A stretch of 64,000 nucleotides of DNA from Trichococcus alkaliphilus (GTDB lineage Bacteria > Bacillota > Bacilli > Lactobacillales > Aerococcaceae), in NCBI RefSeq assembly GCF_003008695.1, contig NZ_PXZT01000003.1:189439-253438 (forward strand), in the 5' to 3' direction. A program made the position numbers and the translations under genes. Position 1 is the first letter of the stretch; each line of letters opens with the position of its first letter. This document shows, in pieces, positions 9,581-30,578 of the stretch. The notes under the pieces are model-generated. The model was not told where the DNA came from, made no database searches, and saw only the letters and a list, made by a program, of their open reading frames with translations.

Positions 9581-10369
9581 TTAAATCAGCCTGTTGTTAC
9601 GAAAGCCGGCCGTTAGAAAACGCCAAGTAGCCTTTCTTTTTGTCAGCCAAGCGATTTGAGCGTCATTCCTGGTGTTTCTGAGTATTCTTGGTATTAAAAA
9701 CGTTGCGACTGTACCCGGTTTATCGGCCAATATATTGAATATCTTTCTGAACTTCTCATCTGCGATGACCTGAGACTGCTGGCCGTTAGGCATTTTTGTG
9801 ATAAAATCCGTCAGCACCATCCCCGGAGATAACCTCCCTGCTATTACATCCGTACCCTCCAGTTCCAGGGCCATCCCTTTCATAAAATACGTTAATGCGT
9901 GCTTGGTAGTGCCGTACAATATTGTTTTTTTCTGGGTCATGTTGTTTGAACCAAGGCCCTCCATGCTATATATCGCGCCTTTCCCCTGTTTTAGCATTCC
10001 CGTTGCAGCAATCTGTGAACCGTATATCATACCAATAAGATTGGTCTTGATAATATTTTCGGTATCTGTTTCGCCCGTTTCCCACGCAAATATGTGAGGC
10101 GTATTTTCCCCCGCGTTATTGATCCATATATTTATCTCGCCCCATTGTGCCAAAGAATCATCCCAAAGTTTTTGCAGATTTGCTTTCTCTTGGACATTGC
10201 ATGAGACATAGATGTACTTCCCCTCAAACGGCGACAGTTCCCTTTGCATTGCTGCCGTGAGTGCTTCACCTCTCCCGGACAACGTAACATTACACCCGGC
10301 ACGCAGAAACTCGTTTGCCATAGAAAAACCAATGCCACGAGTACTACCCGTTATCACAATATTTCTCAT
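9581..10369 (-). CDS. short-chain dehydrogenase/reductase
   Basis: 262 residues with classical SDR motifs: TGSTRGIG (residues 7-14, cofactor binding), NNAG (about 89-92), an active-site serine in YSMEGLGS and the catalytic YxxxK in YGTTKHA. The C-terminus is arginine rich and somewhat unusual (WRFLTAGFRNNRLI). An NAD(P)-dependent oxidoreductase of unknown substrate. AGGGAGG stands 6 bases before the ATG. It is downstream of the CPBP gene on the same strand with a 128-base gap. Confidence 0.92.
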   Translation of the reverse strand: MRNIVITGSTRGIGFSMANEFLRAGCNVTLSGRGEALTAAMQRELSPFEGKYIYVSCNVQEKANLQKLWDDSLAQWGEINIWINNAGENTPHIFAWETGETDTENIIKTNLIGMIYGSQIAATGMLKQGKGAIYSMEGLGSNNMTQKKTILYGTTKHALTYFMKGMALELEGTDVIAGRLSPGMVLTDFITKMPNGQQSQVIADEKFRKIFNILADKPGTVATFLIPRILRNTRNDAQIAWLTKRKATWRFLTAGFRNNRLI

Positions 10370-10497
10370 AAAAAACCTCCCTATTCATCTCCCACCTACT
10401 CATGGGGCTAAGACCAGATCATTCCTTCAGGCGGAAGTCTTCTATCGGGTTGAAGATAAAACGGCATCTTAATCATATTTGTATGATGCTTATAACC

Positions 10498-15326: not shown

Positions 15327-15576
15327 TCTTTTCCTCATCTTTCTAGGCTCATCTGTTATGTAGGTCACAATTGATCTTTTCTTGTCAAACCACTCAATTA
15401 ATGATTATATCACCTAAATCATAATAATACTAATTGTTGAACTGGAAAAAGATAGGTTTATTGCGATTTTTTTTAGAGTTTATTATTTCAGAAAAAAAGC
15501 CTGTTTTGTGTTTTGCACTGAACCGGAAACTTTTCGCAGAAGCTCAAGCAGATACAAAGGATCGATTTCCTGGTGT

Positions 15577-15732
15577 GGCTGGTCTCGCCGGGAATTGCGG
15601 GCATTTCGCATCCCGATTTCCCGGTGAACACTGTCTCACCGGGAATTGCGGGCATTTTGTATCCCGATTTCCCGGTGAACACTGTCTCGCCGGGAATCCG
15701 AAGCCTATTTCTTGCCGATTTCCCGGCGAGCT
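15577..15732. repeat. tandem 51-bp palindromic repeats
   Basis: Three units with a period of exactly 51 bases (GTCTC at 15582, 15633 and 15684). Each unit folds into a hairpin TCRCCGGGAA/TTCCCGGYGA with an inner GGG/CCC pair. The last unit is diverged. Since 51 is a multiple of three, chance open frames run through both strands, with repeated SPGIAGI and DFPVNTV; they have no ribosome site and I do not take them as genes. Confidence 0.8.
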
Positions 15733-15750: not shown

Positions 15751-15780
15751 AAAAAAACCAACCTCCCGAAGGAAGTTGGC
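15751..15780 (-). terminator. intrinsic terminator after gatCAB and its 3' element
   Basis: Stem CCAACTTCC/GGAGGTTGG (one mismatch) around TTCG, followed by T7 on the minus strand. It lies 28 bases past the structured element that follows gatB. Confidence 0.85.
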
Positions 15781-15807
15781 TGGAATGTGTGCAACGCAAA
15801 CGCGTTC

Positions 15808-15909
15808 TGAATCCCAGTAATCTCCGCCTAAGCTGAAAACCCCATCGCGACTAAAACCGGGTCGCGTTGGGGTTTTCCTCTTAGTGCTCGATTCCTAAAG
15901 CGGGATTCA
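15808..15909 (-). ncRNA. structured 3'-UTR element, copy A (after gatB)
   Basis: It begins 8 bases after the gatB stop codon. Helices: P1 TGAATCCC/GGGATTCA (15902-15909 with 15808-15815); P2 AGGAATC/GATTACT with one mismatch; an internal loop GAGCA opposite GGCGGA; P3 CTAAG/CTTAG; P4 GAAAACCCC/GGGGTTTTC continuing into CGCGAC/GTCGCG. The same architecture is found after the CBS-ACT gene (29813-29917) with different helix sequences but kept pairing. It has no T tract of its own, and a separate terminator follows, so it is not simply a terminator. Confidence 0.6.
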
Positions 15910-15916
15910 TCACGCT

Positions 15917-17347
15917 CTATCTTTTTTCTAGTTCTTGTGCTAGTAGTTGGTTGACCATGCCTGGGTTGGCTTGGCCTTTGGTTTGTTTCATGATTTGGCC
16001 TACTAGGAAGCCTTTGGCGCGGTCTTTTCCGGCTTTGAAGTCGTCAACGGATTGTTGGCTGTTGTCCAAAACGGCGTTGATGATCGGCAACAGTTGCGAC
16101 GGATCGCTCATTTGGATCAGGCCTTCTGATTCGACGACTGCTTTTGCGTCGCCGCCTTTTGTTGCCAACAGGCGGAAGACTTTCTTGGCGATTTTCGTGC
16201 TGATGGTGCCGTCTTCGATCAAGGTGATCATGCCGGCAAGGTTCGCTGGCGTCAGTTTGGTGTCGGCCAGTTCCACTTTTTCGCTGTTCAGGTAAGCTGA
16301 TACTTCACCCATCAACCAGTTGGAAGCCAATTTGGCATCCGCACCGGCAGCAAGAGTGCCTTCGAAGAAGTCGGACATTTCTTTCGAAAGTGTCAATACC
16401 ATTGCATCGTACTCAGGTAGGTCGTATTCCGAAATGTATCTTTCGCGACGTTTTGCAGGCATTTCCGGAATGCTTGCTTTGACACGGTCGATCCATTCCT
16501 GGGAAACGGTCAAGCCTGGCAGATCCGGTTCAGGGAAGTAACGGTAATCACTTTCGCCTTCCTTGACGCGCATCAGGATTGTTTCGCCATTTGTTTCATC
16601 GAAACGGCGTGTTTCCTGTTGGATGACGCCGCCAGCGTTCAATACTTGCGCTTGGCGTTTTTCTTCATGAGCCAAACCTCTGCGGACGAAGTTGAAGGAG
16701 TTCAGGTTCTTCAATTCTGTCTTCGTGCCGAATTTTTCTTGGCCGAATGGGCGGATGGAGATGTTGGCATCGCAACGCATGGAGCCTTCTTCCATCTTCA
16801 CATCGGATACGTCTGTGTACATGATGATTTGGCGAACCGCATCCAGGTAAGCATACGCCTCTTCAGGGGAGCGCATATCCGCTTCTGATACGATTTCGAT
16901 CAATGGCGTTCCTTGACGGTTCAAATCGACATAGGAATAGCCGTCCGATCCGTGCATGTTTTTGCCGGCATCTTCTTCAAGATGGACGCGTTCGATGCGG
17001 ATTTTTTTCTTAATGCCTTCCACTTCGATTTCGACCCAGCCGTCATGGCCGATTGGGTTATCCAATTGGGAAATTTGGTAAGCTTTCGGATTGTCCGGGT
17101 AGAAGTAGTTTTTGCGGTCGAAGTGCGTTTCCGTCGAGATTTCGCAGTTCAAAGCCAAAGCAGCCTTCATGCAGAATTCGATAGCTCTTTTGTTGATGAC
17201 AGGCAAGACGCCCGGGTAGCCCCAGTCGATGACGTTTGTGTTTGTGTTCGGTTCTGCCCCAAAGTGTGCTGGAGATGGGGAGAACATTTTTGATTCAGTT
17301 TTCAATTCCACATGGACTTCCAGTCCGATGACTGTTTCATAATTCAT
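15917..17347 (-). CDS. gatB: aspartyl/glutamyl-tRNA amidotransferase subunit B
   Basis: 476 residues, the usual GatB length. It opens with [14 protein letters not shown] and contains the GatB signature region ([33 protein letters not shown]) plus a YqeY-like tail domain that binds tRNA (ending [16 protein letters not shown]). With GatA and GatC it converts Glu-tRNA(Gln), and where needed Asp-tRNA(Asn), to the amide form, using ATP and ammonia from GatA. GAGGAAAAC precedes the ATG. It follows gatA by 12 bases. Confidence 0.98.
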
Positions 17348-29751: not shown

Positions 29752-29812
29752 TTGCTTATTTGTATGGTTTTGCTTGGTGAACGGGATTATTTGGATCCTT
29801 TTAGAACGGTTC

Positions 29813-29917
29813 TGAATCCTAGAGTTCTCCGCCTAACGCTGTTCATGCCCACTCAGCCAAACCCAGGCTGCGCAGTCCTGAACCTCGTTAGTGCTCAAAC
29901 TCTGAGCTCAGGATTCA
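29813..29917 (-). ncRNA. structured 3'-UTR element, copy B (after CBS-ACT gene)
   Basis: It begins 8 bases after the TAG stop, exactly as in copy A. P1 TGAATCCT/AGGATTCA (29910-29917 with 29813-29820); P2 AGAGTTT/GAACTCT; internal loop GAGCA opposite GGCGGA; P3 CTAACG/CGTTAG; P4 GTTCA/TGAAC plus CAGCC/GGCTG. Compared with copy A, paired positions change together in P1, P2 and P3, while the unpaired loop core is identical. Confidence 0.6.
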
Positions 29918-29924
29918 TCACACA

Positions 29925-30578
29925 CTATACTCTTTCTGGTTTGTAGATGATCGATCCGATTTCGTAGCCGTGTTCTTCCAGTCTGGCACGGATGCCGTCG
30001 ATGTCTTTGCTTTCCAACTGGATGACGACTTGGACATAGCCCATTTTGCGGTAAGTCGCGATCTGTTGGATGTTGATGTTCTCATCGGAGAAGATATCGG
30101 TCAGGTCTTCGAGAACGCCTTTTTTGTCTTCATGGATATTGACGACAACGCGGACGCCCGGTGTGTAGTAGCCCAGCACATCGATGAAGGCAGAGAAGAT
30201 ATCCTTTTCGGTGATGATGCCGATCAGGCGGTTGCCTGCCTCGACGACCGGCAATACGCTGATGCCATTCTCACGCATCATTACGGCAGCTTCTTCCAAA
30301 AGAGCTTCCTTGTTGATCGTCACGACGCGTTTTTCCATGATGTCGGCCACTGTCGTTTTATTCAACAGATAGTTGACTTCATGCATATCCAAGCTGGTCA
30401 TGCTGGAAGGTGTATTGCGTTCGATGATGCCCTCCGTGATCAAGCCCACGATGGTCTCGCCTTGAACGACCGGCAGACGGTGAATCTTGTGCTCTTTCAT
30501 CATATCCAAAGCTTCGATGATTTTTGTTGAAGGTTGAATCGTTACTAAATCCGTTGACATATAGCTTTGTACATCCAT
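29925..30578 (-). CDS. CBS-domain protein with C-terminal ACT domain (AcuB-like)
   Basis: 217 residues: two CBS motifs (1-60, MDVQSYMSTDLVTIQPSTKI; 75-130, VADIMEKRVVTINKEA) and an ACT-like domain (about 140-217, VRVVVNIHEDKKGVLEDLTDIF). CBS pairs bind adenosyl ligands and ACT domains bind amino acids. It is the last gene of the liv operon, 3 bases after livF. A natural inference is that it senses branched-chain amino acids and nucleotide state, but the target is unknown; AcuB itself is not well understood. Confidence 0.9.
   Translation of the reverse strand: MDVQSYMSTDLVTIQPSTKIIEALDMMKEHKIHRLPVVQGETIVGLITEGIIERNTPSSMTSLDMHEVNYLLNKTTVADIMEKRVVTINKEALLEEAAVMMRENGISVLPVVEAGNRLIGIITEKDIFSAFIDVLGYYTPGVRVVVNIHEDKKGVLEDLTDIFSDENINIQQIATYRKMGYVQVVIQLESKDIDGIRARLEEHGYEIGSIIYKPERV

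Follow-up and report, generated by a model that had tools for sequence, protein, structure and literature searches.

The window, the whole 64-kb stretch of Trichococcus alkaliphilus DNA analysed here, carries two copies of a folded element, both on the minus strand. Copy 1 lies directly 3' of gatB (15917..17347, minus strand; Pfam GatB_N and GatB_Yqey) and copy 2 directly 3' of a gene encoding a CBS-ACT domain protein (29925..30578, minus strand; Pfam CBS and ACT), each preceded by the stop codon of its gene. A covariance model made from 37 diverse sequences (R3) matches copy 1 at 15804-15916 (103.8 bits) and copy 2 at 29809-29924 (82.3 bits), both on the minus strand, and finds no third copy in the window. 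The two had been put forward as a pair of related folds, and so they are: they belong to one family, can be aligned with each other and fold strongly, with energies of -56.3 kcal/mol (z = -8.16) for copy 1 and -49.9 kcal/mol (z = -5.09) for copy 2, and for neither copy did any of 200 shuffles fold equally well.

The folded core of copy 1 (15804..15916, minus strand) comprises an outer helix, a GA/GA step, helix P1, a 5' bulge, helix P2, a GAGCA/GCGGA internal loop, helix P3 and an apical hairpin. That of copy 2 (29809..29924, minus strand) has the same architecture built from other helix sequences (the CTAACG/CGTTAG class). Read directly from the letters, P1 is TGAATCCC/GGGATTCA in copy 1 and TGAATCCT/AGGATTCA in copy 2, a second helix is CTAAG/CTTAG in the one and CTAACG/CGTTAG in the other, and GAGCA stands opposite GGCGGA in both, all as originally described. 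The length proposed at that time, about 100 nt, proved too short, since inclusion of the termini common to other copies gives an element of about 120 nt running from AG-AGCGTGATGA to TCAGAACGCGTTT. With boundaries taken from those other copies, copy 1 would extend over 15798..15918 on the minus strand (AGAGCGTGATGA...TCAGAACGCGTTT) and copy 2 over 29802..29926 on the same strand (AGTGTGTGATGAATCC...GGATTCAGAACCGTTCTA). The AG at the left boundary would then belong to the element itself and also complete the TAG stop codon.

Each copy was also said to be followed by its own terminator. After the gat copy, an intrinsic-terminator-like site was called at 15756..15781 on the minus strand by its match to the consensus. 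The one after copy 2, in the putative liv operon, was read by eye on the minus strand, and the terminator scan near that copy returned a plus-strand site only. Just beyond the gatB terminator, at 15563-15729, a different repeat (CGATTTCCCGGTGA...) occurs three times at a spacing of 51 nt, and hairpin-like CCGGTGA/CCGGAG repeats are found beside elements in other Trichococcus loci as well (L044, L281).

Architecture and distribution of the family

The copies share a plan more than a sequence. Short termini, the GA/GA step and an unpaired 5' bulge before an AG/CU step recur, most members have the GAGCA/GCGGA internal loop, and the helix sequences vary. Trichococcus copies begin with AGAGYGNGA, AGGATRNGA or AGTGTGNGA and end with GAACRCGTTT, TCRACTA or CGTTCTA. 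The strong covariation foreseen in the original prediction is evident. In alignments fitted to the models, a procedure that itself favours the structure, 93.7% of cells pair among 37 diverse sequences (alignment A6), 94.9% among 110 distinct Trichococcus copies (A4) and 95.9% among 67 distinct copies from the lineage G237 (A7), and slid controls of A6 reach at most 42.2%. The pairs changed on both sides number 38 of 38 in A6, 33 of 38 in Trichococcus and 22 of 38 in G237. A reading of UGAUGA as a Box C/D or k-turn motif was dropped, part of it being paired in P1.

Helices are exchanged between copies. The 99 complete rows of the 110 Trichococcus copies contain 28 combinations of the 5' arms of P1 and P2, and 9 of 45 types of inner hairpin arm occur with more than one type of P1. 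The element may be described as an imperfect palindrome in DNA, nested and about 110-125 bp long, with conserved unpaired bases inside it and exchangeable helices.

Other modules were encountered along the way. A second core type within like termini, (C)CCGTACGTTGGAG opposite GAAACGGTAGTGG, replaces GAGCA/GCGGA at L022 1501-1612, L023 1501-1612, L042 1501-1609, L033 and L116, and it occurs also in G023, another genus of the family. In several copies (L090 about 10224-10389, L032 about 1309-1478, L054 about 1621-1791, and L024), the right half after TTAGG is replaced by a further module, CACTCAAACGTCACAGTGCGACGTTTGAGGTCTTT..., which gives the impression of a repeat that was nested in the element or swapped into it. 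At proS (L273-L275) and at two other genes (L043, L084), stop codon and element have another hairpin pair (GGATGCACTGTG...CAAGTGTATCATGGCTCTAAGCGATTGAAATCGCAAGAGCCATGACAAATCCC) between them.

The core pattern GAGCACTAA-N25-55-TTAGGCGGA has 8 exact matches in the genome from which the window comes, and its reversed control has none. A covariance-model search, which had been suggested together with the original prediction, was made with a model of those eight core copies (R1). It gave 20 matches in the same genome at E<=1, 13 of them at E<=2e-20, eight of these 13 being the copies that built the model and hence matching by construction. The same model found the element in all 13 genomes of the genus Trichococcus (7-36 matches each, E<=0.01) and in 2 of the 28 other genomes of the same draw. 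A broader model of 38 sequences (R2) matched at E<=1e-4 in at least 32 of 395 genomes of the order, representing at least 14 of 80 genera, figures that are lower bounds because nine candidates were scored per genome. A strict pattern found at least 120 stretches in a collection holding one genome per species. Among the 80 matches listed by name, all bear names of Lactobacillales (the order being judged by the names), including Levilactobacillus, Lactiplantibacillus, Ligilactobacillus, Companilactobacillus, Periweissella, Pediococcus acidilactici and Trichococcus. At the level of the class, with E<=0.001 as the limit, R3 matched in 7 of 121 genomes, of which six lie outside the order. These matches follow a similar plan, and some lie in tandem (G446, G500, G506). 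Ten genomes, picked as already positive and with up to 150 candidates scored in each, gave at least 150, 144, 110, 100, 58, 16, 10, 8, 8 and 1 matches. There are thus many dispersed copies with common ends, as in MITE-like elements.

Such numbers bear on a prosaic account, that the elements are ordinary transcription terminators or the decayed ends of insertion sequences, alike in appearance. The elements are palindromic and lie between stop codon and terminator, as that account would have it. Against it, the copies in the window have no T-tract after them, a separate terminator-like site follows copy 1, and loops and termini recur in a structure in which all 38 pairs covary. Already contradicted by the copy counts and the architecture, this account is hardly credible.

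The comparison with Rfam that had also been suggested showed that none of the 4227 families of Rfam 15 covers the element. Within the window no match reached its gathering score, and at E<=10 either copy drew sub-gathering matches only. A search of 20 loci of relatives at E<=0.5 gave five matches, one above the gathering score and four below, the latter being the plastid psbA 3'UTR twice (L295) and two microRNA families (L133, where they lie on a tandem copy of the element). We take the four below gathering as hairpin look-alikes. The match above gathering is the BsrC small RNA (RF01410), which lies at L055 2634-2720 in the genome G025 at a distance of about 1 kb from an element. Copy 1, searched against plasmid and phage records, gave no match, nor did literature text searched with sequence words from the family, and nothing corresponding was found described there.

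Gene borders and signs of movement

Placement was examined in 60 Trichococcus stretches, in which 112 of 117 matches were considered and 70 lead an array. One weak match (L083 3688) and four partial ones (L088 19522, L091 5548, L096 9818, L103 6923) were left out, and one duplicate place was dropped. By the calls of a crude ORF finder, the gene next upstream shares the strand of the element for 62 of the 70 array-leading copies, and 54 of the 70 start between -7 and +7 nt from a same-strand stop codon, counts that are to be read with the knowledge that the stretches were chosen around known matches and that orthologous sites recur, so that neither the 70 arrays used for placement nor the 33 used for linkers (below) are independent. 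Genes ahead of the copies include, by Pfam, groEL, argS, proS, gatB, mnmG and ychF. Where a copy stands 122 or 245 nt from a gene, another element type precedes it. Between successive tandem copies there are 8-13 nt of linker in 40 of 41 cases and 32 nt in the remaining one. Among the loci found by the strict pattern, 51 of 128 matches fall in the interval from -5 to +10 nt around a same-strand ORF end, reckoned roughly from the core, and 40 of 128 have no same-strand ORF end within 400 nt upstream.

Placement after stop codons, as originally predicted, therefore holds for Trichococcus (54/70), but it fails in G237, where none of the 40 copies examined, the best-scoring of its 150 scored matches, follows a stop codon. 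Judged by rough motifs, the left flank holds a ribosome-binding site and start codon in reverse in 11 of the 40 (the right flank in 2) and a T-tract in 8 (the right flank in 0), and about half show neither. The same position relative to genes in different lineages, as would be looked for in a cis-regulatory RNA, is thus not seen. Perhaps the rule common to both is that the left end lies at a gene border, the kind of border depending on the lineage.

The same gene ends bear different subtypes in different species, as seen at argS, groEL and gatB, and orthologous sites may be occupied or empty, as is the case with MITE-like elements. The end of mnmG is filled in G000 and G008 and empty in G001, G003, G005 and G010. 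proS was located in 12 of 13 genomes. In three of these (G005, G011, G012) other DNA comes next and there is no element, in G004 there is at most a short stretch resembling a left end, and the other eight have whole, decayed or other-type elements. A second gene was located in all 13 genomes. Stop codon and terminator have no element between them in G001 and G005, other DNA follows in G009, and eight genomes have elements or remnants (three left halves in a row in G000), the locus being unreadable in G007 and G010 because a fixed offset missed the gene end or a contig end cut the locus. The three left halves in G000 (L285, G000:C19 near 167298) stand 3' of this gene, their right halves absent, and are succeeded by terminator-like sequence. 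Between species, start points at the same stop codon differ by a few nucleotides, which suggests separate insertions.

The linkers within arrays hold a further trace. The final 2 nt of the gene end recur in 22 of 53 linkers (6.4 under the null; 0 of 2000 shuffles), its final 3 nt in 11 of 46 (3.7 under the null; 1 of 2000 shuffles). Repeats of the last 4 nt, in 3 of 27, are not above chance (252 of 2000 shuffles reach that number). Around ends of class a, identical 4-mers stand flush on either side in 8 of 113 cases against 0.9 under the null, this being the best of 96 offsets and lengths scanned, and the same scan gave no clear signal for ends of classes b and c. Most copies lack an exact target-site duplication. 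The 2-3 nt repeats in the linkers, together with the flush 4-mers of class a, make it likely that insertion duplicates a short target, for the most part imperfectly.

The many copies, the tandem arrays, the different subtypes or absence of the element at orthologous ends, the repeats in linkers and the exchanged helices all speak for mobility. The element is, we think, probably a non-autonomous mobile palindrome, similar in kind to EFAR, REP and BOX, whose fold is maintained mainly as DNA. Of the three readings offered with the original prediction, we favour that of a mobile palindrome whose fold is preserved, and a regulatory RNA in the 3' UTR is disfavoured as the main reason for the fold.

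DNA or RNA

The latter reading nonetheless deserves attention. It supposes a structured 3'-UTR RNA, acting in stability, ribosome release or attenuation, that is selected as RNA and copied between genes. The position of most array-leading Trichococcus copies no more than 7 nt from a stop codon, on the sense strand, is what one would expect of such an RNA, and the strict sense orientation at these stop codons would be easier to understand if RNA mattered. The covariation in all 38 pairs, and the fact that several species have insertions near one and the same stop codon but at slightly different places, can also be counted in its favour. Set against these are the absence of G237 copies after stop codons and the orthologous genes that have other subtypes or no element. 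Moreover, about a quarter of the G237 copies (the 11 of 40, by the rough motif) lie upstream of genes and reversed, so the mRNA would carry the complement of the element.

A fold kept as RNA is expected to tolerate G-U far above A-C, and the two kinds of mispair were therefore counted. G237 (A7) has 36 G-U and 34 A-C among 2493 cells. Trichococcus (A4) has 69 G-U and 38 A-C among 3934 cells, two pairs holding 37 of the 69 G-U and 7 of the 38 A-C. The diverse set A6 has 43 and 15, and A5, which overlaps A4 and A6, has 34 and 5. Eight tRNAs from the same DNA served as a control and gave 13 G-U and 0 A-C among 175 pairs, the control being small and drawn with ARAGORN, which itself favours standard pairs. 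G-U is thus clearly above A-C in two of the four alignments counted (A6 and A5); a preference for wobble pairs is lacking in G237, is weak in Trichococcus and does occur in the broader sets.

G-U above A-C in A4, A5 and A6 is the outcome that selection as RNA would lead one to expect; the equality in G237 is not. The counts point to, without proving, a DNA hairpin in the copy-rich lineage. Taken together with the placement in that lineage, they speak against the view that the fold exists chiefly to serve as a regulatory RNA of the 3' UTR, and as a general account we consider such an RNA unlikely. In Trichococcus itself, given the 69 G-U against 38 A-C, the element may still have a role as RNA.

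Mechanism and comparison with known systems

How might a mobile palindrome come to lie where these elements do? In the scheme we envisage, an enzyme acting in trans would recognise the folded hairpin, in single-stranded or extruded DNA, by way of its conserved bulges. New copies would be inserted beside a gene border, duplicating a few nucleotides, and older copies would be pushed away and then decay. The site tolerated or targeted in Trichococcus would be a few nucleotides past the stop codon, in sense orientation, and that in G237 would often be upstream of a ribosome-binding site or just past a T-tract. Transcription should place the hairpin in the 3' UTR, where it may have a secondary effect on mRNA decay, by analogy with REP.

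The RAYT/Y1 transposases were considered as the mobilising enzyme and set aside, as the search of the element's own genome for a Y1 transposase found only one gene, and that one broken. Its remains, at L126 1480-1934 (G000:C9), are split into two frames and lie beside a putative tnpB-like frame. No ends of the element were found near the broken gene in the 1.6 kb read. A version of the element that carries a gene was sought in loci totalling 2.38 Mb, overlaps included and the first 28 loci skipped, and no pair of ends was found around a gene. The distant matching ends that had been candidates turned out to be tandem or nested copies, or the ends of two separate copies 4.3 kb apart.

A wider version of the scheme would posit a superfamily of mobile sites in folded DNA that extends across the Bacilli, moved by a trans-acting enzyme that reads the shape of the hairpin and finds gene borders (in Trichococcus, a few bases past the stop codon), perhaps on DNA exposed at the termination of transcription or translation. 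Its helices would evolve by pairwise replacement, so that shape would be inherited and not sequence. This we put forward tentatively, as a doubtful extension.

An element with at least 150 copies in one genome, one that in Trichococcus follows such core genes as groEL, gatB, argS and proS, is yet absent from the families of Rfam. Covariation screens could mistake elements of this type for riboswitch-like RNAs. The count of G-U against A-C may serve to separate palindromes kept as DNA from RNAs, though the distinction is clear here in one lineage only. The family also raises the question of what it is that puts DNA close by stop codons in the one lineage but ahead of ribosome-binding sites in the other.

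Among known systems, the attC sites of integrons, including the VCRs, have a fold conserved over sequence, bulged bases, a length of about 120 bp and an arrangement in arrays. One might accordingly suppose that the elements are attC-like folded recombination sites, gained and lost by a tyrosine recombinase. The likeness extends to structure conserved above sequence, unpaired conserved bases, size, arrays and the site after stop codons. The ends of the elements do not, however, fit the R-box consensus of attC core sites (GTTRRRY/RYYYAAC), the linkers of 8-13 nt hold no genes, there are no cassettes between copies, and several of the host genes are core genes. The integron-type integrase TIGR02249 scored over its cut-off in none of 10 genomes, which had sub-cut-off matches only, as had 13 of 14 control genomes. 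Kinship with attC is on this evidence quite improbable.

The mycobacterial MIRU are small repeats inserted at stop codons in sense orientation. Compared by description, they resemble the Trichococcus element in both respects. They differ in that their targets are the places within operons where a stop and a start codon overlap, and in that they are not known to be nested palindromes. The REP and BIME sequences of enterobacteria, extragenic palindromes like those described here, occur in arrays near the 3' ends of genes and are mobile in trans. REPs are shorter, however, and are tied to RAYT Y1 transposases, whereas the Trichococcus element faces the gene with one end and its own genome has the single broken Y1. 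According to PMC2267715, PU-BIME is said to act as mRNA stabiliser and attenuator. Table 3 of the same paper gives BOX and RUP of Streptococcus pneumoniae as non-autonomous intergenic repeats present in many copies. By description only, the Trichococcus element shares these traits with them, being non-autonomous, intergenic and multi-copy.

The EFAR repeats of Enterococcus faecalis, reportedly the subject of work by Venditti et al. in 2007 and presumably identical to Efa-1, are modular palindromic miniature elements with a variable assembly of sequence types. They are known from one species, and their targets are stem-loops that are largely lost on integration. The Trichococcus element, set beside them by description only, is likewise palindromic, intergenic and miniature and occurs in a member of the Lactobacillales. 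It differs in that the terminator stays downstream and the stop codon forms the border, and in that its family spans many genera. Efa-1 is 163 bp long, has 65 members (18 of them complete) and folds into two adjacent stem-loops, according to PMC2267715. By description, EFAR would seem the nearest described kind, and the element family may by the same analogy be filed with the palindromic non-autonomous repeats, a kind already known.
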